64,000 nt of DNA, from contig NZ_AP022582.1 of the NCBI RefSeq assembly GCF_010731595.1, positions 558,001-622,000 on the forward strand, given 5' to 3'. The notes beneath the pieces are model-generated. The model saw nothing but the letters and a program-made list of their open reading frames with translations. It ran no database searches and was not told the DNA's origin. Source of the stretch: Mycobacterium seoulense. GTDB lineage: Bacteria > Actinomycetota > Actinomycetes > Mycobacteriales > Mycobacteriaceae. The position numbers and the translations under genes were made by a program. Positions 7,859 to 18,274 of this stretch are shown here, one piece after another; within the stretch, counting starts at the first letter, position 1, and the number at the start of each line of letters is the position of its first letter.

Positions 7859-8310
7859 GCAAGACGCTGCTGATCGTCCACCACACACCGTCGCCGCATT
7901 GCCAGGAAATGTTCGAGGCGGTCGTGGCCGGTGCGACCGACCCCGAGATCGAGGGCGTCGAGGTCCTTCGGCGACCGGCGCTGACCGTGTCGCCGGTCGA
8001 GATGCTGTCGGCCGACGGCTACGTGTTGGGCAGCCCCGCGAACCTGGGCTACATGAGCGGCGCGCTCAAGCACGCGTTCGACTGCGCCTACTACCAGCTG
8101 CTGGACTCGACGCGCGGGCGCCCGTTCGGGCTGTACCTGCACGGCAACGAGGGCACCGAGGGTGCCGAGCGTGGCGTCATGTCGATCACCACCGGGCTGG
8201 GCTGGACGAAAGCCACAGAGACAGTGGTGGTTTCGGGCCAGCCGGACAAGGGCGACCTGCAGGCCTGCTGGGAACTCGGCGCGACGGTGGCCGCCCAGCT
8301 GATGGCCTAG
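7855..8310 (+). CDS. Flavodoxin/NADPH-dependent FMN reductase-like protein
   Basis: A 151-residue protein at the Rv2771c position. The N-terminal strand and phosphate-binding loop (LLIVHHTPSPHCQEMF) and the segment DGYVLGSPANLGYMSGALKHAFD are typical of the flavodoxin/FMN-reductase fold, binding FMN through the first loop and the Asn-Leu-Gly-Tyr segment. It overlaps the preceding membrane gene by four bases (ATGA), which fixes the start. Likely a quinone or FMN reductase of unknown partner. Its stop overlaps the stop of the convergent thioesterase gene by four bases. Confidence 0.82.
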   Translation: MSKTLLIVHHTPSPHCQEMFEAVVAGATDPEIEGVEVLRRPALTVSPVEMLSADGYVLGSPANLGYMSGALKHAFDCAYYQLLDSTRGRPFGLYLHGNEGTEGAERGVMSITTGLGWTKATETVVVSGQPDKGDLQACWELGATVAAQLMA

Positions 8311-9146
8311 CCATGAGTCGGCTGGAACGCCTCGGCCGGTTGGGCCAGCGCCAGCGCCGAGCTGGTGCCGATCGGCCCGTGCCGGTCGAACAGGGTGGCG
8401 GCGCCGGTGGCCACCCCGGCAGTGGCGTAATGGCTTTGCGCCGCCAGCCCCACGTACTCGCCGTCGGGCAGGCGGCTGGCGGTGACCGTGTAGTCGGCGT
8501 TGATGTAGCGCAGTCCGCCCGTGCCCCAATGGGTCAGCGAACTCGTGATGTCACCGACGAAGGCCAGCCGGGTGAACGGCGTCAGCGGATGGCCCTGCAC
8601 CATCGGGCGAAAGACCCTCGTCCAGGCGAACTTCTGCGAGTGGGACTGTTCCCACTCGCCGGCCGCGATGCCCGGGCTGCCCGCTTCGGTGGCGCCGTAC
8701 CCCCAGATGAGGAACGGCATGTCGGACGGGAAGCCCTCGGAATCGGCCGGAAGCGGCGGCATGGCCAGGGGCGCGGACCACACCGCCCCGTCGGGATGCG
8801 CCCCCCGGCGCAGGAACAGCGCGCTGGCCCGCGCGACGGTGTTGCCGTTCTGCACCAGTGCGGCGTCGACCAGTTTGATCCGCCGGCCCTCCCGCTGCAC
8901 CGACGTCCGAATCCGGACCGGCTCGAGCAGCGCCGGCCGCAGCAGGTCGACCGTGAATCGGGCCGGCTGGAAGTCCGGCTCGATGCCGGATTGCTCTATG
9001 CCCCAAGCCAACAGGCCGCCGACGTTCTGGCCGCCCATCGCGGCGCCCCACGGCCCCCGCGTCAGCACGCCCGGAACGTACGAGTCACCGTCGACAGTGA
9101 AGAACGCCTCGGGCATGATGGCGGCATCGTCGATCGTCACCGTCAT
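8307..9146 (-). CDS. Acyl-CoA thioesterase-like double hot-dog protein
   Basis: A 279-residue protein of the TesB-like/thioesterase family (4HBT_3 type): an N-terminal hot-dog half containing GGQNVGGLLAWGIE and RFTVDLLRPALLEPV, and a C-terminal half ending in QSHYATAGVATGAATLFD and a D-x-x-G-P-like turn. Such enzymes hydrolyse acyl-CoA or act as hydratase-like folds on acyl-CoA. A much longer open frame continues upstream on the minus strand but has no coding character, so the ATG at 9146 is used. It is divergent from the acyl-CoA ligase, with a 33-base gap, which suggests joint regulation of the lipid island. Confidence 0.8.
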   Translation of the reverse strand: MTVTIDDAAIMPEAFFTVDGDSYVPGVLTRGPWGAAMGGQNVGGLLAWGIEQSGIEPDFQPARFTVDLLRPALLEPVRIRTSVQREGRRIKLVDAALVQNGNTVARASALFLRRGAHPDGAVWSAPLAMPPLPADSEGFPSDMPFLIWGYGATEAGSPGIAAGEWEQSHSQKFAWTRVFRPMVQGHPLTPFTRLAFVGDITSSLTHWGTGGLRYINADYTVTASRLPDGEYVGLAAQSHYATAGVATGAATLFDRHGPIGTSSALALAQPAEAFQPTHG

Positions 9147-9179
9147 CACGATAGGACACGCCGATAGTAAGGACCGGGC

Positions 9180-10715
9180 ATGCCTCCAGTGATCGAAATT
9201 CCGCGCGCACACAACCCGTTCCCCACCACAGGCGTGACCCGTGACGCCGACGGCATCCCGCACTACGACGAACTTCCGGCCACCCTGCTGGACATGCTCG
9301 CCGAACAGGTCGAGCAGCGCCCGGGCAGCGAGGCGCTGGTCGAACTCGGTGCCGGTCGGCTGACCTACCGGCAGCTGTGGGACCGCGCGGCGCGCGTCTC
9401 CGGCGGCCTGCGGGCCGCCGGGCTGCGACCCGGTGACCGCGTCGCGGTGCGTTACCCCGCCGGCATCGACTGGGTGCTGGCGTTCTGGGGCACGGTGATG
9501 GCCGGCGGCGTTGCGGTGGCGGTCAATACGCGCTCGGCGCAACCAGAGGTCGACTTCGTCCTCTCCGACTCCGGGGTGACCGTGGACCTGGCGGCCGGCG
9601 CGCCGCTGCCCGACGGACCGCCGTACGTCACAGAGCGACTCGAGCGCACCGACGTGGCCGCGCTGTTCTACACCTCGGGCACCACCGGCCACCCCAAGGG
9701 GGTCCCGACCACCCACGAGGCCTTCCTGACCAACACCGAGAACGCGATTCGCTGTCTCGACCAGCCGCGCGACCTGGGCGACGCCATGCGCACGCTCATC
9801 TCGGTGCCGCTGTTCCACGTGACCGGGTGCAACACGCAGCTTCTGGTCGCCGCCCGGTTGGGCGGGGCCTCGGTGATCATGCCCGCCCTCAACCTGGACG
9901 CGTTGATCGCCACGCTGAGCGCCGAGCGCATCTCCGTCATGGTTACCGTTCCGGCGGGCTACGCATTGATGTTGCGGCACAACGCCTTCCCCGACGCCGA
10001 CGTGTCCGGTGTCCGCTGGGTGGGCTACGGCGGGGCCCCGATCGCCCCGTCGTTGGTGCGGGCGGTGCAGAGCGCCTTCCCCCAGGCCACGGTGTTCAAC
10101 GGCTACGGCATGACCGAGACGGCCTCGCTGATGACCGTGCTGCCCAGCCGCGACGCCGTCGAGCACGCCGACTCGGTCGGGTACGCGGTCCCGTCCGTCG
10201 ACCTCGGGCTGGTCTCGTTCGGCGGCGATGAACCGGGAGTCGGTGAGCTGGTGGTGCGCGGCGCCAACGTGACCGCCCGGTACTGGAACCGCCCGGAGGC
10301 GACCGCGGCCACCATCGTGGACGGCTGGCTGCACACCGGTGACGTGGTCCGGGTCGACGAAGCGGGCCGGGTGCACATCGTCGACCGGCTCAAGGACATC
10401 ATCAACCGCGGCGGTGAGAACGTGTCCAGCGTCGAGGTGGAATCCGTGCTGCTGGCGGCGCCCCACGTCGCGGACGCGTGCGTGCTGGCGGTTCCCGACG
10501 ACGTCATGGGGGAGAAGGTTGGTGCGGTGTTGTTCGGCGGCGCCGACGAGATCGACGTGCCGGCGGTGCTCGACCACTGCCGCGAGCAGCTCGCCGACTT
10601 CAAGGTGCCGCAGTACGTCACGGTGGTCGATAAGGCGCTGCCGCGCAACGCCGGCGGCAAGCTGCTGAAGGGCAAACTCCGTGAGCAGGTGCGGTGGGGG
10701 GAGCCGCTGCGATGA
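9180..10715 (+). CDS. Acyl-CoA synthetase (AMP-forming), fatty-acid-CoA ligase family
   Basis: A 511-residue member of the ANL superfamily. It has the AMP-binding P-loop YTSGTTGHPKG (164-174), the adenine motif NGYGMTETAS, the YWNRPEAT and GWLHTGDVV motifs, the hinge DRLKDIINRGGENVSS and the C-terminal catalytic lysine K494 in NAGGKLLKG. It activates a carboxylic acid to its CoA thioester through an acyl-adenylate. The stop overlaps the start of the carboxylase gene by four bases, so the CoA ester product is likely the substrate, direct or indirect, of the carboxylase. Chain-length specificity cannot be read. Confidence 0.92.
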   Translation: MPPVIEIPRAHNPFPTTGVTRDADGIPHYDELPATLLDMLAEQVEQRPGSEALVELGAGRLTYRQLWDRAARVSGGLRAAGLRPGDRVAVRYPAGIDWVLAFWGTVMAGGVAVAVNTRSAQPEVDFVLSDSGVTVDLAAGAPLPDGPPYVTERLERTDVAALFYTSGTTGHPKGVPTTHEAFLTNTENAIRCLDQPRDLGDAMRTLISVPLFHVTGCNTQLLVAARLGGASVIMPALNLDALIATLSAERISVMVTVPAGYALMLRHNAFPDADVSGVRWVGYGGAPIAPSLVRAVQSAFPQATVFNGYGMTETASLMTVLPSRDAVEHADSVGYAVPSVDLGLVSFGGDEPGVGELVVRGANVTARYWNRPEATAATIVDGWLHTGDVVRVDEAGRVHIVDRLKDIINRGGENVSSVEVESVLLAAPHVADACVLAVPDDVMGEKVGAVLFGGADEIDVPAVLDHCREQLADFKVPQYVTVVDKALPRNAGGKLLKGKLREQVRWGEPLR

Positions 10716-13700
10716 GCGCGACCGTGCTGGTCGCCAACCGCGGCGAGATCGCGCTCCGAATCATCCGCACGACAACAGAATTGGGGATGCGAACGGTCGC
10801 GGTCTACGCCGAGGACGATGCCGAGAGCCCCCACGTGCACGCCGCCGACGAGGCGATCGGCCTCGCGGGTGCCGGGCCGCGGGCCTACCTGGACCAGCCC
10901 GCGATGCTGGCCGCGGCCAAGAGCTCCGGCGCGGAGCTGATCCACCCGGGTTACGGATTCCTCAGTGAGAACGCCGAATTCGCCCGCGCCTGCGCCGGTG
11001 CCGGGTATACGTTCGTGGGGCCGGACGCCGACGCGCTCGAGCTGGTGGGCAACAAGTCCGCCGCCCGCCGCGCCGCCGTCGCCGCCGGGGTGCCGGTGTT
11101 GCCCGCGACCGACGGGCCGAGCAGCGTCGCCGACATCGAGGCGTTCTTCGCCGCCCACGGCGGCGCCGTCATCATCAAGGCACTCGCCGGCGGGGGCGGG
11201 CGGGGAATGCGCGCGGTGCGCGGCGCCGGGGAGATCGGCGACGCCTACCGACGGTGCGCCGCGGAGGCGCAATCGGGCTTCGGCGACCCCGCCCTGTACG
11301 CCGAGGCGCTGCTCGACGGCGCGCGGCACATCGAGGTCCAGGTCGTCGCCGCCCCGGCCGGGCACCAGACCCGCGCACTCGCGCTCGGCGACCGCGACTG
11401 CAGCATCCAGCGGCGCTACCAGAAGCTCGTCGAAATCGCGCCCGCCCAGGGGCTTTCCGACGGTCTGCGGCGCGACCTGCACCAGGCGGCGGCCCGGCTG
11501 TGCGCGCGGGTCGGCATGCGCGGGCTGGCCACGGTCGAATTCCTGGTCACCGGTGAGGATTTCGTGTTCCTGGAAGTCAACCCGCGAATACAGGTGGAGC
11601 ACACGGTCACCGAGGAGACGACCGGGTTCGATCTGGTGGCCATCCAGCTGGCGATCGCCGGGGGCGCCTCCTACTACCAGCTCGGGCTGCCGGCCGGAAT
11701 CGCCTCCGACGGCAACGAAGTCATCGGTGAGCCCGCCGCGCATCGCGGCATCGCGATCGAGGTCCGGGTCAACATGGAGACTTTCGGCCCGGACCTGTCC
11801 GTCGTGCCCGCCGCCGGCGCGCTCACCGCGTTCTCGCCGCCGAGCGGGCCGGGGATCCGCGTCGACACGTACGGCCGGGCCGGGCTGGTCGTCAACCCGC
11901 AATACGACTCGCTGCTGGCGAAGCTCGTCGCCCACGTGCACGCGTCGTCGCCGCACGCGGCGGTACGCAAGGTGCGCACGGCCCTCGCCGAGTTCGGCAT
12001 CGAGGGCGTCCGCACCAACGTCGAATTCCTGCGCGAGCTGCTGCGTGACCCCGCCGTGGAATCCGGTTGCGTGAGCACGGGTTTCCTCGACGCGAAGCTG
12101 CCCGAGCTGGCGGCGGCGGTGTCGTCGCACCAGCACGACGTCCGCGCCGCACCGGTCGAGCTCTACCCCGGCGAGGACGTGCTGCGGGCGCAGTTGGCCG
12201 GCACCGTGGTCGAGGTGGTGCCCGAGGGCGCCGAATACCCGGCGGGCTGCCAGCTCGTCGTCCTCGAGGCGATGAAGATGCAGCATGTGCTCGTCGCACC
12301 GGATGCGCTGCGGACCGTTCGCGGTCTGGTGGCCCCCGGGCAGGTCGTCGGAACCGGCGACCCGTTGCTGGTCTTCACCCGCACGGGCACCGCCGCCGGT
12401 GGCGACTCAGCCACGGCCGCAACGGATCTCGACCGTCCGCGCGCCGACCTCGACGAGGTGCGCAGACGGCGCCTGTTCACCCTGGACGAGGGGCGCGAGG
12501 CCGCCGTGGCCAAGCGGCACAGCCAAGGTCGCCGCACCGCGCGGGAGAACATCGCCGATCTGATCGATCCCGGTAGCTTCGTCGAATACGGCGCGCTGGC
12601 GATCGCCGCACAGCGCAGCCGGCGCTCGGAAGAAGACCTGATCGCCAACACACCGGCGGACGGCCTGGTGGCCGGCCTGGCCACGATCGGAGCGGATCGC
12701 TTCGGGCGGGCCGCGGCCGAGGCGGTCGTGGTGTCCTACGACTACACCGTCCTGGCCGGCACGCAGGGCATGCGCAACCATGCCAAGACCGACCGCGCGT
12801 TCGACCTCGCCGCCCGACGGCGGCTGCCGGTGGTGCTGTTCGCGGAGGGCGGCGGTGGCAGGCCGGGCGACACCGACGTCGGCGGCGCCGCGGGGCTGGA
12901 CGTGCCGACCTTCCGGATGCTGGCCGCGCTGAGCGGCCGGGTGCCGTTGATATCGATCGTTTCCGGCAGGTGCTTCGCCGGCAACGCCGCGCTGGCCGGG
13001 GTGTGCGACGTGATCATCGCGACGCCCGACGCCAACATCGGGATGGGCGGGCCGGCCATGATCGAGGGCGGCGGGCTCGGGGTGTACCCGCCGGAGGCGA
13101 TCGGGCCGATCGGCGTGCAGCGGCGCAACGGCGTCGTCAGCCTGGTGGCCCGCGACGAGGCGCACGCGGTCTCGCTGGCCAAGCGTTATCTGTCGTATTT
13201 TCAGGGCGCCCTGGACGACTGGGCGGCGCCGGATCCGCGGCTGGCCCGGCATGTGGTGCCGCAGAACCGGTTACGCGCGTATGACGTCCACCGGGCGATC
13301 GCGGCGATCGTCGACACCGGGTCGGTGCTGGAGCTGCGGCCGGACTACGGCGTCGGCATCGTCACCGCGCTGGTCCGCGTCGAGGGGGCGGCGTACGGGC
13401 TGATCGCCAACAGCACCCACCACCTCGGCGGCGCCATCGACGCCGAGGCCGCAGACAAGGCCGGCGACTTCCTCGCCCTGTGCGAGTCGTTTCGGCTGCC
13501 GGTGATCTCGCTGTGCGACACCCCCGGCTTCATGGTCGGGCCCGACGCGGAGAAGGAAGCGGCGGTGCGGCGGTTCGGGCGGATGTTCGTCCTGGGCGCG
13601 CGGCTGACCGTCCCGCTCGGAATGATCATCCTGCGCAAGGGATACGGGCTCGGCGCGATGGCGATGGCCGGCGGTTCCTTCCGCGCCCCGCAGTTCACCA

Positions 13701-13951
13701 TCGCCTGGCCCACCGGCGAGATCGGCGGGATGGGGCTCGAAGGCGCGGTGCGCCTCGGGTTCAGCAAGGAGCTGGCGGCCGAGGGCGACCCCGTCAAGCG
13801 CCAGGAGCTGTTCGACAAGCTGGTGGCGGCGGCCTACGAGCACGGCAAGGCGCTGCGGTCGGCCACCACGTTCGAGCTTGACGACGTCATCGACCCCGCG
13901 GACTCCCGGGCCTGGATCGCCAGGCTCCGGGAGCCACGCAGATCGAACTGA
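10712..13951 (+). CDS. Single-chain multidomain acyl-CoA carboxylase (LCC type)
   Basis: A 1079-residue biotin enzyme that has both half-reactions on one chain. The order is biotin carboxylase (1-450; ANRGEIALRI, ATP-grasp loop ALAGGGGRGM at about 155-164, EVNPRIQVEHTVTEE), a linker domain, BCCP with biotinyl lysine K522 in EAMKMQH, and a carboxyltransferase (about 570-1079; GGAAGLDVP, RCFAGNAAL, ANIGMGGPAMIEGGG, then a second crotonase-like half with DTPGFMVGPDAE). It carboxylates acyl-CoA at the alpha carbon using ATP and bicarbonate. The arrangement matches the hexameric long-chain acyl-CoA carboxylase described from M. avium subsp. paratuberculosis; other mycobacterial ACCs are split (AccA/AccD/AccE). 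The ATG overlaps the ligase stop (ATGA). Confidence 0.93.
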   Translation: MSATVLVANRGEIALRIIRTTTELGMRTVAVYAEDDAESPHVHAADEAIGLAGAGPRAYLDQPAMLAAAKSSGAELIHPGYGFLSENAEFARACAGAGYTFVGPDADALELVGNKSAARRAAVAAGVPVLPATDGPSSVADIEAFFAAHGGAVIIKALAGGGGRGMRAVRGAGEIGDAYRRCAAEAQSGFGDPALYAEALLDGARHIEVQVVAAPAGHQTRALALGDRDCSIQRRYQKLVEIAPAQGLSDGLRRDLHQAAARLCARVGMRGLATVEFLVTGEDFVFLEVNPRIQVEHTVTEETTGFDLVAIQLAIAGGASYYQLGLPAGIASDGNEVIGEPAAHRGIAIEVRVNMETFGPDLSVVPAAGALTAFSPPSGPGIRVDTYGRAGLVVNPQYDSLLAKLVAHVHASSPHAAVRKVRTALAEFGIEGVRTNVEFLRELLRDPAVESGCVSTGFLDAKLPELAAAVSSHQHDVRAAPVELYPGEDVLRAQLAGTVVEVVPEGAEYPAGCQLVVLEAMKMQHVLVAPDALRTVRGLVAPGQVVGTGDPLLVFTRTGTAAGGDSATAATDLDRPRADLDEVRRRRLFTLDEGREAAVAKRHSQGRRTARENIADLIDPGSFVEYGALAIAAQRSRRSEEDLIANTPADGLVAGLATIGADRFGRAAAEAVVVSYDYTVLAGTQGMRNHAKTDRAFDLAARRRLPVVLFAEGGGGRPGDTDVGGAAGLDVPTFRMLAALSGRVPLISIVSGRCFAGNAALAGVCDVIIATPDANIGMGGPAMIEGGGLGVYPPEAIGPIGVQRRNGVVSLVARDEAHAVSLAKRYLSYFQGALDDWAAPDPRLARHVVPQNRLRAYDVHRAIAAIVDTGSVLELRPDYGVGIVTALVRVEGAAYGLIANSTHHLGGAIDAEAADKAGDFLALCESFRLPVISLCDTPGFMVGPDAEKEAAVRRFGRMFVLGARLTVPLGMIILRKGYGLGAMAMAGGSFRAPQFTIAWPTGEIGGMGLEGAVRLGFSKELAAEGDPVKRQELFDKLVAAAYEHGKALRSATTFELDDVIDPADSRAWIARLREPRRSN

Positions 13952-13962
13952 TCAGGGACCGA

Positions 13963-14310
13963 TCAGGCGTGGCCGGAACCGCAGCCGACGCCGGGCAGGC
14001 AGCCCTGGCCGCCCGGCACGCCGCCGGGACCGGCGAACTGTCCGCCGGAGCCGCAGCCGACGCCCGGGACGCAGCCCTGGCCGCCGGGACCGCCGCCGGG
14101 GCCGTTGAACTGGCCGCCCGAACCGCAGTTGCCGTTGGCGTCACAACCACCGCCGCCCGGGTCGTCCTTGAACACCACGTGCGTGGGCGCCGCGGACGGG
14201 GCGGGCGCGGGACCAACAGAATCGGTGATGGCGATCGGCGCAACCACGATTGCCGCGGCCGCAGCCCCGCCCATCACCAGTCTTTTCGTGAGGGTTAATT
14301 TCGAGGACAT
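13963..14310 (-). CDS. Small exported Gly/Cys-rich repeat protein
   Basis: A protein of about 115 residues. The N-terminus (KLTLTKRLVMGGAAAAAIVV, then APIAITDSVG) looks like a signal peptide. The mature part, after a Pro/Ala linker, consists of a repeated unit of about 27 residues: C-x4-C or C-x4-G-C, GSGGQF, then a GPGG-x-PGGQ segment, occurring two full times plus a terminal CLPGVGCGSGHA. Cysteine pairs C-x4/5-C recur three times, suggesting disulfides or metal binding. In-frame starts exist at 14346 and 14367 (GTG) and no ribosome binding site decides between them. It is unrelated in strand to the carboxylase and SDR on either side. Function unknown. Confidence 0.6.
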   Translation of the reverse strand: MSSKLTLTKRLVMGGAAAAAIVVAPIAITDSVGPAPAPSAAPTHVVFKDDPGGGGCDANGNCGSGGQFNGPGGGPGGQGCVPGVGCGSGGQFAGPGGVPGGQGCLPGVGCGSGHA

Positions 14311-14400
14311 GCGTTTCGCATACCACGCACGGACAGGTGTAAACATCCATCTAGCGAAACGGGACACCGCTGGCTATCGCGCGACGGAAGGCGCATCACG

Positions 14401-15177
14401 ATGACCTCACTGGATCTGACCGGCCGAACCGCGATCGTCACCGGCGCCTCGCGCGGGATCGGGCTCGCGATCGCCCAGCAGCTGGCGGGCGCCGGGGCCA
14501 ACGTGGTGCTCACCGCGCGCAAGCAGGAGGCCGCCGACGAGGCCGCCGCCCAGGTCGACGGCAACGCCCTCGGCGTCGGCGCGCACGCGGTCGACGAGGA
14601 CGCCGCCCGGCGGTGCGTGGACCTCACGCTGGAGCGTTTCGGCAGCGCCGACATCCTGATCAACAACGCGGGCACCAACCCCGCCTACGGTCCGCTGATC
14701 GACCAGGACCACGCCCGATTCACCAAGATCTTCGACGTCAACTTGTGGGCCCCGCTGCTGTGGACCTCGCTCGTCGTCAAGGCGTGGATGGGCGAACACG
14801 GCGGCGCGATCGTCAACACCGCCTCCATCGGCGGCCTGCACCAGTCACCGGCCATGGGGATGTACAACGCCACCAAGGCCGCGCTGATCCACGTCACCAA
14901 GCAGCTGGCGCTCGAGCTCTCGCCCCGCGTCCGCGTCAACGCCATCGCCCCCGGCGTGGTGCGCACCCGGCTGGCCGAGGCGCTGTGGAAGGACCACGAG
15001 GATCCGCTCGCGGCCTCGATCGCGCTCGGTCGCATCGGGGAGCCCGCCGACGTGGCCGGCGCCGTGGCCTTCCTGGTTTCCGACGCCGCGAGCTGGATCA
15101 CCGGCGAGACGATGGTCATCGACGGCGGCCTGCTGCTCGGTGCCGCCCAGGGCTTCCAGACTCGACCGCAGGGCTAG
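14401..15177 (+). CDS. Short-chain dehydrogenase/reductase (FabG-like)
   Basis: A 258-residue classical SDR: cofactor motif TGASRGIG (about 18-25), the structural NNAG motif, active-site serine in VNTASIGG and catalytic Y155-x3-K159 (MYNATKAAL). C-terminal GGLLLG follows the usual substrate loop. It reduces 3-oxoacyl or oxidises 3-hydroxyacyl thioesters, or acts on another hydroxyl. The locus corresponds to fabG5/Rv2766c of M. tuberculosis by synteny. It is followed after two bases by the acyl-CoA dehydrogenase pair, so it probably supplies a beta-oxidation step on the same acyl chain. Confidence 0.88.
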   Translation: MTSLDLTGRTAIVTGASRGIGLAIAQQLAGAGANVVLTARKQEAADEAAAQVDGNALGVGAHAVDEDAARRCVDLTLERFGSADILINNAGTNPAYGPLIDQDHARFTKIFDVNLWAPLLWTSLVVKAWMGEHGGAIVNTASIGGLHQSPAMGMYNATKAALIHVTKQLALELSPRVRVNAIAPGVVRTRLAEALWKDHEDPLAASIALGRIGEPADVAGAVAFLVSDAASWITGETMVIDGGLLLGAAQGFQTRPQG

Positions 15178-15179
15178 CC

Positions 15180-16373
15180 GTGAGCTCCGACGATCTGGCG
15201 GCCGGCCTCGAGGCGCGGGTGCAGGCGCTGCTGGACGACCACGACCCCGCCACCACCGAGCCGCGGGAATTCCTCGGCGCCCAGTACGACGCGGGCCTGG
15301 CCTGGGTGTACCTGCCGCAGGGCTTCGGCGGGCTGGGCCTGCCGCGCAAGGCCCAGGAACTCGTCGACGCAAAGCTGGCCGCCGCGGGGGCGCCCGTGGG
15401 CGGCACCGCCAAGAATTTCATCGGAATGGGGATGGCGGCCCCCACCATCGCGGCCTTCGGGACCGACGAACAGAAGCGAAAGTTCTTGCGCCCCTTGTTC
15501 ACCGGTGAGCAGGTCTATTGCCAGTTGTTCAGCGAGCCCGGCGCGGGCTCCGACCTGGCCGGGCTGGCCACCCGCGCGGTGCGCGACGGCGACGACTGGA
15601 TCGTCAACGGGCAGAAGGTGTGGACCTCGATGGCCCAGCACGCGCAGATGGCCATCCTGGTCGCCCGCACCGACCCGACGGTGCCCAAACACTTTGGCCT
15701 GACGTACTTCCTGTGCGACATGACGCAGCCGGGCGTCGACGTGCGCCCCCTGCGTCAGATCACCGGCGAGGCCGAATTCAACGAGGTGTTCCTCACCGAC
15801 GTGCGGGTGCCCGACGCGAACCGGCTCGGCCCGGTCGGCGGCGGCTGGCGGGTCGCGACCACCACGCTCAACAACGAGCGCGTCGCCATCGGCACCCGCG
15901 CCGGAACTCCGCGCGAGGGCGGAATCATCGGCAAGGTCACCAAGGCGTGGCGGGACGAGCCGCGGCTGCGCGACCCGGCGATGCACGACGAGCTGATGAA
16001 ACTGTGGGTCGACGCCGAGGTCCTTCGGCTGGCCGGTGAGCGGCTGCGCCAGCAGGCCCAGGCCGGTCAGCCCGGCCCGGAAGGCGCGGGCATGAAAGTG
16101 GCCTTCGCCCGCCTCGCGCAAGCCATCTCGGGGTTCGACATCGAGCTGCACGCCGAGTCGGGGCTGCGCTACGACGACTGGACCATGCGCCGGACCGAAG
16201 TCGTCGATCTGATCGGACGCGAGCCCGGCTATCGCTACCTACGCGCCCGCGGCAATTCCATCGAGGGTGGCACCTCGGAGATCCTGCGCAACACCATCTC
16301 CGAGCGGATCCTGGGCCTGCCGGGTGAGCATCGCGTCGACAAAGACGTCGCGTGGAAGGACCTGAACCGGTGA
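15180..16373 (+). CDS. Acyl-CoA dehydrogenase, putative catalytic subunit
   Basis: A 397-residue FAD-dependent dehydrogenase of the FadE type: N-terminal helical domain, beta domain with QLFSEPGAGSDLAGL and VNGQKVWTSMAQHA, and C-terminal helical domain ending in SIEGGTSEILRNTISERILGL. The Glu in IEGGT lies where the catalytic base of many acyl-CoA dehydrogenases lies. The GTG start is two bases after the SDR stop and fits operon organisation. The stop overlaps the GTG of the next dehydrogenase by four bases, which indicates translational coupling and an alpha/beta complex like the mycobacterial steroid-type FadE pairs. Substrate is unknown. Confidence 0.88.
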   Translation: MSSDDLAAGLEARVQALLDDHDPATTEPREFLGAQYDAGLAWVYLPQGFGGLGLPRKAQELVDAKLAAAGAPVGGTAKNFIGMGMAAPTIAAFGTDEQKRKFLRPLFTGEQVYCQLFSEPGAGSDLAGLATRAVRDGDDWIVNGQKVWTSMAQHAQMAILVARTDPTVPKHFGLTYFLCDMTQPGVDVRPLRQITGEAEFNEVFLTDVRVPDANRLGPVGGGWRVATTTLNNERVAIGTRAGTPREGGIIGKVTKAWRDEPRLRDPAMHDELMKLWVDAEVLRLAGERLRQQAQAGQPGPEGAGMKVAFARLAQAISGFDIELHAESGLRYDDWTMRRTEVVDLIGREPGYRYLRARGNSIEGGTSEILRNTISERILGLPGEHRVDKDVAWKDLNR

Positions 16374-17461
16374 GCGACCTGCTCTACTCCGACACCGAGG
16401 AGGCGCTGCGGGACAGCGTCCGGCATCTGTTCGCCGACCGCTGCCCGCCCGAATCGGTGGCACACGCCTATGACCCCGAACCACGGGACTTTTCGGGCGT
16501 TTGGCGGACCCTGGCCGGCGAGCTGGGAGTGGCCGGGCTGCTGGTTCCCGAATCCCTCGGCGGAGCGGGCGCAAGCGCGCGCGAGGCCGCGGTCGTCATG
16601 GAGGAGATCGGCCGGGCCGTCGCGCCGGTGCCGTTCCTGTCCAGCGCGGTGCTTGCCACGGTCGCGCTACTGCGTGCCGGCGACACCGAGACCGTGTCCG
16701 CGCTGGCCCGCGGCGAACTGACCGCCGCGTTGGCGGTGGCGCTGCCGACCGCGCCCGGCGATCCGGTCGCGGCGGTGACCCGCGGCGCCGACGGGCTGAG
16801 CGGATCGGTCACCAGCGTCGCCGGTGCCGCCGAGGCCGACGTGCTGGTGGTGCCGGTCGCCGGCCCGGACGGACTCGAGCTGCACACCGTGCCGCGCACC
16901 GCGGCCGGTGTGGAGGTGTCGCCGCTGCTGGCGCTGGACATGACGAGACCCCTTGCCGACGTCAGGTTTTCGGGTGCGGAATCGGCATACGTCGGGCCGG
17001 CGGACGGACCGGTCGGCGAGGCGCTGCGCACCGGGGCCGCCCTGCTCGCCTCCGAGCAACTCGGCGTCGCCCAGTGGTGTTTCGAGACCACGCTCGATTA
17101 CGCCAAGCAGCGCAAGCAATTCGGCCGCGCGATCGGCTCCTACCAGGCGATCAAACACCGGCTGGCCGACCTGTGGTTCGAGGTCGGCGCCGCGACGGCG
17201 GCCGCCCGCTACGCCGCCGACACCTGCGCCCGCGACGACGTGGACTCGACCGTCGCGGCGGCCCTGGCCCAGGCGTATTGCAGCGGCACCGCCGTGCACG
17301 CGGCCGAGGAGTGCGTACAGCTGCACGGCGGCATCGGCATGACGTGGGAGTATCCCGCGCACCTGTACCTCAAGCGGGCCAAGAGCGACCAGTTGATCTT
17401 CGGCACCGCCTACCGTCACCGCGCCCGGCTGGCCGAACTGGTGGACCTGCCGCCGAATTAG
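16370..17461 (+). CDS. Acyl-CoA dehydrogenase, putative partner subunit
   Basis: A 363-residue protein with the acyl-CoA dehydrogenase fold: helical N-terminus (EEALRDSVRHLFADR), a divergent beta domain lacking the usual EPGAGSD-type motif, and the helical C-terminus with the FAD-contacting RKQFGRAIGSYQAIKHRLAD and the QLHGGIGMTWEYPAHLYLKRA stretch. It ends in DQLIFGTAYRHRARL without the E-G-G-T catalytic segment seen in its partner. This asymmetry is the one reported for heterotetrameric FadE pairs in mycobacteria, so I infer a heteromer with the preceding gene. The GTG start overlaps the upstream stop (GTGA). Confidence 0.85.
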   Translation: MSDLLYSDTEEALRDSVRHLFADRCPPESVAHAYDPEPRDFSGVWRTLAGELGVAGLLVPESLGGAGASAREAAVVMEEIGRAVAPVPFLSSAVLATVALLRAGDTETVSALARGELTAALAVALPTAPGDPVAAVTRGADGLSGSVTSVAGAAEADVLVVPVAGPDGLELHTVPRTAAGVEVSPLLALDMTRPLADVRFSGAESAYVGPADGPVGEALRTGAALLASEQLGVAQWCFETTLDYAKQRKQFGRAIGSYQAIKHRLADLWFEVGAATAAARYAADTCARDDVDSTVAAALAQAYCSGTAVHAAEECVQLHGGIGMTWEYPAHLYLKRAKSDQLIFGTAYRHRARLAELVDLPPN

Positions 17462-17524: not shown

Positions 17525-18274
17525 TTAGCGCGGTAACGCGGAAGCGAAGACCTCGCTCATGGCCTGCCAGTGCCGTTCGGCCGCTGCCGGATCGTACGGC
17601 GCATTGTCCGGAACCGCGAACCCGTGGCCCGCCGGATACCACTCGATGGTGTGGCGCACGCCGGCCGCCGTCAGCGCCTTTTCGAGCTGCTCGGCGTGGT
17701 CGCGCGTGAAGGACGCGTCGTCCTTGGCGCCACCCACGTACACCGTGGCGCTCATCCGGTCGGCGAGCAGGTGTGGGCTGTCCGCGGTGTCGGTCACCAG
17801 GCCGCCGCCGTGGAACGACGCCGCGGCGGCGACGCGCTCGGGCACCCGGCCGGCGACGATCAGCGACGTGCGCCCGCCCATGCAGTAGCCGCACACGCCG
17901 AAACGATCCCCGCAGACCTCGGGGCGGGCCGCCAGGTAGTCGAAGAACGCGGCGGCGTCGCTGGCCATCTTGTCCGGCGTGACGCTGCCGATCATGCCGA
18001 ACAGCCGCTTGCGTTCCCGCTCGTCACCGAACACGGTGGCCATGTCGAACGGCGCCCAATCGCCGCTGCGGTAGTACACGTCGGGAAGCAGCACGGTGTA
18101 GCCGTATCCGGCCAACTTGGCCGCCATGTTCTCGAACGTGTCGCGCACCCCGCCGGCGTCGGGGTACATGACCACGCCGGGCCACGGGACCTGGGCTTGC
18201 GGACCGTCGGGGGTGAACAAGTGGACGGTGCAGGTTCCGTCTGCGGTGGTGATGGTGTCGATGATGTTCGGCAT
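17525..18274 (-). CDS. Dienelactone hydrolase family protein
   Basis: A 249-residue cytoplasmic alpha/beta hydrolase at the Rv2765 position next to thyA. The nucleophile is the Cys in GVCGYCMGG, the typical G-x-C-x-G elbow of dienelactone hydrolases; the acid and histidine are compatible with GAKDDASF and the C-terminal YPAGHGFA. It would hydrolyse lactones or esters. It is convergent with the second acyl-CoA dehydrogenase and divergent from thyA, from which it is separated by the 57-bp repeats. The physiological substrate is unknown. Confidence 0.88.
   Translation of the reverse strand: MPNIIDTITTADGTCTVHLFTPDGPQAQVPWPGVVMYPDAGGVRDTFENMAAKLAGYGYTVLLPDVYYRSGDWAPFDMATVFGDERERKRLFGMIGSVTPDKMASDAAAFFDYLAARPEVCGDRFGVCGYCMGGRTSLIVAGRVPERVAAAASFHGGGLVTDTADSPHLLADRMSATVYVGGAKDDASFTRDHAEQLEKALTAAGVRHTIEWYPAGHGFAVPDNAPYDPAAAERHWQAMSEVFASALPR

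Follow-up and report, generated by a model that had tools for sequence, protein, structure and literature searches.

Gene layout at the carboxylase locus

The DNA analysed here (the window, 64,000 nucleotides in length) comprises positions 558001-622000 of the single 5.53 Mb contig of Mycobacterium seoulense and encodes a single-chain long-chain acyl-CoA carboxylase (LCC), preceded by a FadD-type acyl-CoA ligase and followed by a short-chain dehydrogenase/reductase (SDR) and two acyl-CoA dehydrogenases, FadE alpha and FadE beta (FadEab). The principal new finding is that a ligase directly before the LCC recurs outside the mycobacteria, across phyla.

Gene calls combined an open reading frame (ORF) listing, a codon-position gene caller and Pfam searches (Table 1). 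They confirmed the thioesterase, ligase, carboxylase, SDR and two dehydrogenases where an earlier reading, made from the letters and their ORFs (the sequence-only reading), had placed them, as well as the ATGA overlap of the ligase stop with the carboxylase start and the GTGA overlap of the two dehydrogenase genes. FadE alpha begins 2 bp past the SDR stop, and the thioesterase frame in the ORF listing stays open to 9167 and beyond. The same reading had also put a Gly/Cys-rich protein in the row; the gene is real, but it lies on the opposite strand between LCC and SDR, antisense to both, and divides the row there. The enzymes are thus arranged as two same-strand units, FadD-LCC and SDR-FadEa-FadEb, with the divergent thioesterase alongside. 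A single six-gene operon was ruled out because there is no single same-strand run, given the antisense gene and the divergent thioesterase, and because the units are separable.

Table 1. Features of the M. seoulense locus (window positions)
Feature	Positions	Strand	Basis and remarks
Acyl-CoA thioesterase, 4HBT_3/TesB-like	8307-9149	-	PF13622, PF20789; divergent from the ligase
FadD-type acyl-CoA ligase, 511 aa	9180-10715	+	PF00501, PF13193
Single-chain acyl-CoA carboxylase (LCC), 1079 residues	10712-13951	+	Match to 4RCN_A
LCC, biotin carboxylase part, residues 3-460	10718-12091	+	PF00289, PF02786, PF02785
LCC, biotinyl carrier part, residues 497-554	12200-12373	+	PF00364, 22.2 bits, barely over the cut-off of 22.1 bits
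LCC, codon of the putative biotinylation Lys522	12275-12277	+	Motif EAMKM
LCC, carboxyltransferase part, residues 602-1069	12515-13918	+	PF01039
Gly/Cys-rich protein, 115 aa	13963-14310	-	Signal-peptide-like N-terminus by eye; not part of the enzyme set
SDR	14401-15177	+	PF13561/PF00106; YxxxK at residue 155
FadE alpha, acyl-CoA dehydrogenase	15180-16373	+	PF02770, PF00441, PF02771; GTG start; IEGGT segment
FadE beta, partner acyl-CoA dehydrogenase	16370-17461	+	PF00441, PF02771; DQLIFGT in the corresponding segment

The carboxylase and the ligase beside it

Judged by its sequence, the protein of 1079 residues belongs to the known LCC kind, with homology from end to end. The search against LCC structures that the sequence-only reading had proposed aligned it with 4RCN_A over residues 1-1073 (1936.7 bits), the second match in the Protein Data Bank (PDB) scoring 592.8 bits. 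The PDB names 4RCN 'long-chain acyl-CoA carboxylase', and we take it to be the enzyme that Tran et al. (2015) described from M. avium subsp. paratuberculosis. Pfam matches and the EAMKM motif bore out the claim that the biotin carboxylase, biotinyl carrier and carboxyltransferase (CT) domains share one chain, and their order is that of 4RCN.

Single-chain LCCs were called rare in the sequence-only reading and are so described in PMC6491548, which does not agree with what we found. A contig scan across bacteria recovered at least 80 nearly full-length LCC loci at ≥50% identity in many bacterial groups, and at least 592 confirmed relatives of any kind; the best named locus was that of Mycobacterium sp. 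852014-50255 (92%). In a sample of 297 genomes of the genus, 222 matched the LCC at E≤1e-150. Among the matches listed, 92 genomes by hand count, the window's own included, had a match of LCC grade, at 71-100% identity and in some cases split or partial, and the best E-values of the other 130 resembled those of the listed stand-alone CT matches (54-58% identity, covering approximately residues 530-1077 at most).

The closest PDB chains to the CT part were 4RCN and 5FIF. The 12S methylmalonyl transcarboxylase came next at 232 bits and full-length propionyl-type CTs reached 141-198 bits, compared with 139 bits for AccD1, 104-133 bits for MCC chains and 126 bits for GCC. This similarity favours alpha-carboxylation as the predicted reaction, with a score difference that is gradual; gamma-carboxylation of the MCC/GCC type was placed second on the same gradual difference. 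In the CT tree, the window CT fell within starred sets of LCC CTs (27 rows, starred value 97), its nearest row being Mycobacterium scrofulaceum, and the three paralogues included lay across a branch with support of 100. The tree has flagged long branches, and paralogue L008 was dropped for its short alignment.

To compare neighbourhoods within the genus, 60 of the 92 LCC regions were fetched. The SDR was present in all 60. FadE alpha occurred in 53 and FadE beta in 51, with beta missing from L120 and L099 truncated at a contig edge; 41 had the thioesterase, L103 and L104 being interrupted by the end of their contigs. The FadEab pair was not at the locus in seven cases (L134, L137, L139, L140 and L146-L148). 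In the CT tree, the loci without FadD or FadEab fall in two starred clades, which may represent few events. Among 12 named mycobacterial loci, a set overlapping the other, FadD was not found in L018 and L028, nor the thioesterase in L016-L018 and L028. Thus, the gene order is common among mycobacteria with an LCC, and the units separate in relatives. The proposal of one six-enzyme pathway is not supported by these counts or by the antisense gene between LCC and SDR.

The best PDB match of the window FadD was FadD13 (3R44); it carries the motifs TSGTTG and GYGMTE, and no NCBIfam model among the best 25 of 105 reached its cut-off. A ligase of the same cluster (c5) lies directly upstream of LCC, on the same strand, in 47 of the 60 fetched loci of the genus and further upstream in eight. 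Seven of these eight have a gene of cluster c23 or c130 adjoining LCC; one representative of each cluster proved to be a PPE-family protein. PPE-family genes or fragments were also seen between FadD and LCC in some relatives (L129:5421-5960, L133:5112-5966).

Outside the genus, an AMP-binding ligase directly precedes LCC on the same strand in 20 of 65 loci (20 of 66 in another count, and with one of the 65 lacking any upstream gene), and in L044 the ligase is on the opposite strand. In 18 of the 20 pairs, -3 to 14 bases separate the end of one gene from the start of the other. As a background, ligases occupied nine of 534 gene positions lying four to eight genes from LCC on either strand, so that the position directly upstream holds a ligase at approximately 18 times the rate seen further away. 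All 20 ligases belong to a single cluster, c18, whose tested representative exceeded the NCBIfam cut-off for the PRK06178 acyl-CoA synthetase (928 vs 782 bits). Members of c18 from Actinobacteria and from other phyla are 37-51% identical to each other, and the mycobacterial c5 ligases are 24-34% identical to those of c18. That the same carboxylase stands next to ligases of two different groups is the strongest indication that ligase and carboxylase may form an activate-and-carboxylate pair; the earlier suggestion that an acid is activated and then carboxylated is supported to this extent.

Separable neighbours and LCC-free relatives

The best PDB matches were 4X28_A and 6WY9_A (the Tcur3483 chain) for FadE alpha, and 6WY8_A (the Tcur3481 chain) and 4X28_D for FadE beta, so that each product of the adjacent genes is closest to the matching chain of these enzymes. 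We take 4X28 to be FadE26-FadE27 (ChsE4-ChsE5) and both enzymes to be heterotetramers of steroid breakdown that act on steroid CoA esters. The adjacent alpha/beta arrangement is common to 4X28 and Tcur3481-Tcur3483, but with scores of only 156 and 118 bits they are distant relatives. The IEGGT segment of FadE alpha presumably marks the usual position of the catalytic Glu; FadE beta has LIFGT at this place, and a Glu is likewise missing there from the aligned alpha chain of 4X28. The best NCBIfam matches, pimeloyl-CoA dehydrogenase large subunit (TIGR03204) for alpha and IpdE2 (NF050027) for beta, did not reach equivalog status (186.8 and 203.6 bits vs cut-offs of 623.85 and 450). FadEab is best read as a putative alpha/beta enzyme whose acyl-CoA substrate would be branched or bulky.

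Outside the genus, FadEab orthologues (alpha 67-70%, beta 51-68% identity) lie within 10 kb of LCC in four of 68 loci, some of which have cut flanks. The four represent three genera and differ in arrangement: Rhodococcus (L022), Tsukamurella (L023 and L025) and Actinomadura (L062). Weaker FadE pairs are found near LCC in L061 and L086. The Tsukamurella cluster L023:3-13186, which combines LCC with three acyl-CoA dehydrogenases, two ligases, an MFS transporter, a phosphotriesterase-family protein and a TetR regulator (assigned via cluster c28, of which one representative was tested), looks catabolic.

These data bear on a different role for the carboxylase, in which FadD, FadE and SDR would beta-oxidize a branched acid and LCC would serve as the terminal salvage step, turning the resulting propionyl-CoA into methylmalonyl-CoA. 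Such a role would fit the nearness of the LCC CT to propionyl/methylmalonyl-type CTs and the distant likeness of FadEab to 4X28 and 6WY8/6WY9, enzymes active on steroid CoA esters. According to the Discussion of PMC6491548, the Pseudomonas-type LCC accepts C2 to C16 substrates with comparable kcat, which also suits salvage, but its Km for palmitoyl-CoA is 350-fold below that for acetyl-CoA. Moreover, distant loci have LCC beside a ligase (20/65) more often than near FadEab (4/68), and on balance we consider salvage somewhat unlikely.

The thioesterase matched no NCBIfam family and had no PDB relative at E≤1e-3. The Gly/Cys-rich protein, which contains two copies of a GC(V/L)PGVGCGSG segment, matched no Pfam family; tblastn found it in 54 of 73 LCC-SDR intergenic stretches, a set in which the window is counted and some species occur twice. 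Downstream of FadE beta in one relative, the gene L115:12786-14015 resembles the rifamycin-inactivating glycosyltransferase Rgt (452 bits, cut-off of 800 not reached), and 30 genes of the fetched loci fall in its cluster (c15).

Many LCC-free mycobacteria carry a stand-alone CT that is 54-59% identical to the LCC CT (L149-L168). The 20 stand-alone CTs form one clade in the CT tree, but their place relative to LCC is unsure, and for this reason a branch with all LCC CTs on one side had support of only 24. Downstream of the stand-alone CT, L150 has both a FadE pair (51/39%) and a 4HBT_3 thioesterase, and L152 and L156 have a FadE pair; a thioesterase of cluster c11 or c65 (the latter assigned from one representative) occurs in 11 of the 20 fetched regions. 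Together, these arrangements hint that a subunit enzyme may have replaced LCC in LCC-free mycobacteria. Among the matches listed for the 297 genomes, one genome (G059, 7% contamination) showed both LCC and stand-alone CT.

Co-occurrence was analysed in 70 genomes picked by their LCC/CT state: 30 with LCC, 30 with a stand-alone CT and 10 with neither at 1e-150. LCC and stand-alone CT were never found together in this set, which was picked on that basis, and one of the ten 'neither' genomes (G055) has a partial stand-alone CT. Orthologues of FadE alpha (≥79%) were present in 26 of the 30 LCC genomes vs three of the 40 others, FadD (≥72%) in 27/30 vs 5/40, and the thioesterase (≥81%) in 21/30 vs 0/40. 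On the 70-genome tree, built from a conserved window ORF read as RNase J, the state changes numbered three for LCC, three for FadE, five for FadD and six for the stand-alone CT. Only three independent pairs differ in LCC; on average, LCC and FadE go together in 0.8 of them and LCC and FadD in 1.7, and LCC and the stand-alone CT run opposite in 1.9. With so few changes and pairs, the genome contrasts may be clade effects.

Six LCC-free loci (L176-L181), chosen for having SDR or FadE alpha, show how the units come apart. Three of them (L176-L178, from G026, G029 and G064) keep FadE alpha at 80-84% identity and retain SDR and FadEab, with FadD and LCC absent or decayed: L176 has FadD in several tblastn pieces, L178 has FadD and LCC as short pieces only, and in L177 tblastn found neither. 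That FadD and LCC are missing or decayed together here speaks for the two as a pair, although the three loci form one clade and perhaps result from one event. In L179-L181, FadD and SDR remain without LCC or a FadE alpha orthologue (FadE alpha matches of only 26-27%). An SDR at ≥74% was present in seven of 16 genomes searched, two of which have LCC. Because L176-L178 keep SDR-FadEab without an intact FadD or LCC, SDR-FadEab and FadD-LCC are separable. The expectation of a conserved neighbourhood was therefore borne out in part: the order is common where LCC is present and some FadEab-LCC linkage exists outside the genus, but FadEab or FadD is gone at some LCC loci and the units part in L176-L181. 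The dienelactone-hydrolase gene (17525-18274) and thyA were ruled out as parts of the system, both being kept in all six of these LCC-free loci. Elsewhere in the window's genome (C1, ~1.01-1.06, 1.31-1.34 and 3.90-3.93 Mb), open frames of up to 10379 codons carry repeated AMP-binding domains and appear similar to non-ribosomal peptide synthetases.

A candidate activate-and-carboxylate pair

We tentatively favour, as plausible though short of probable, a reading in which FadD and LCC are an activate-and-carboxylate pair that makes a 2-carboxyacyl-CoA, and SDR-FadEab is a linked, separable oxidation module. The ligase would convert a free acid into its acyl-CoA, and LCC would add a carboxyl group by means of ATP, bicarbonate and the tethered biotin, most likely at the alpha carbon, to give 2-carboxyacyl-CoA (alkylmalonyl-CoA). 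The SDR and the alpha/beta dehydrogenase, distantly like those of steroid breakdown, would oxidize an acyl-CoA, probably a branched or bulky one; this unit may belong to the same catabolic setting as FadD-LCC and can exist without it. The divergent thioesterase probably frees stalled acyl-CoA. Gene content, domains, homology, conservation and the pairing of ligase with LCC in several phyla are observed; for the scheme built on them we infer the substrates, the direction of flux, alpha-carboxylation and the cooperation of both units.

Several results weigh against this reading. No ligase lies directly upstream of LCC on the same strand in 45 of the 65 distant loci; the 20 that have one all draw on a single cluster and may reflect few events, as may either ligase group (c5 or c18), and the profile used to detect ligases was built from members of these same two clusters. 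FadD is not present at five of the 60 LCC loci of the genus (L141-L145) and occurs without LCC in five of the 40 LCC-free genomes, and although all five of these carry a stand-alone CT, so does most of the LCC-free set (31/40). Beyond the genus, FadE lies near LCC in 4/68 loci, CT bit scores fall off gradually from the propionyl type to the gamma type, and within the genus, with three independent pairs among 70 genomes, no co-occurrence of LCC with FadE or FadD could be demonstrated statistically.

The row could instead consist of lipid genes assembled by chance in a lipid-gene-rich genome and kept together by common descent. Domain matches in the window's genome number 97 for AMP-binding and 85 for Acyl-CoA_dh_1 (matches, not genes), LCC changes state only three times on the 70-genome tree and the units come apart in relatives. 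Such a gathering becomes more likely, and the activate-and-carboxylate pair less so, because the three loci with joint loss of FadD and LCC all belong to one clade and because the CT score gap is gradual. Nevertheless, chance would not readily explain why a ligase from a different cluster recurs directly upstream of LCC outside the genus at about 18 times the rate found further away, or why three other genera have FadEab orthologues close to LCC, and we regard it as distinctly unlikely.

A bolder version of the activate-and-carboxylate reading, which we rate as unlikely, would see the ligase-LCC pairs as an undescribed acid-using route that starts with alpha-carboxylation rather than beta-oxidation, the partner having been swapped for a distant relative between lineages with the pairing kept, and a stand-alone CT replacing LCC in many mycobacteria. 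We found no paper joining a single-chain multi-domain acyl-CoA carboxylase with an operon. The titles and opening lines of abstracts of the papers found, among them PMC4347857, PMC6491548 and PMC8623537, describe no LCC gene neighbourhood, though one may be described elsewhere.

LCC has a structure and a reported in vitro activity, and a recurring ligase partner offers a direct handle on its natural substrate; the separable FadE/SDR unit cautions against reading the entire row as one pathway. Compared with the M. avium paratuberculosis LCC (4RCN), the window enzyme has the same domain order, and the comparison brought up no feature in which the two differ. For the ligase, the nearest parallel is the SamR0482-MccB pair of Streptomyces ambofaciens. 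According to PMC5187497, in stambomycin synthesis SamR0482 probably activates fatty acids and MccB carboxylates them to alkylmalonyl-CoA. FadD-LCC might likewise provide 2-carboxyacyl-CoA as an extender unit from which lipids or polyketides are made, given that the pairing of enzymes is the same. However, no polyketide synthase was detected among the ten neighbour proteins scanned with Pfam, unlike in the stambomycin cluster (the wider window was not scanned for such synthases), and 205 of the 297 genus genomes have no LCC-grade match in the hand count of listed matches, so LCC is not a general requirement in the genus; this makes the supply of extender units very unlikely, the least probable of the explanations weighed here. 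The two systems also differ in that MccB, encoded in a polyketide cluster, forms a distinct beta subunit whose presumed partner is AccA2, whereas the window LCC is one chain. What they would share is the sequence of a ligase and then a carboxylase acting on a fatty acid, as proposed here for FadD-LCC; the ligase-plus-carboxylase combination has a published precedent in SamR0482-MccB.

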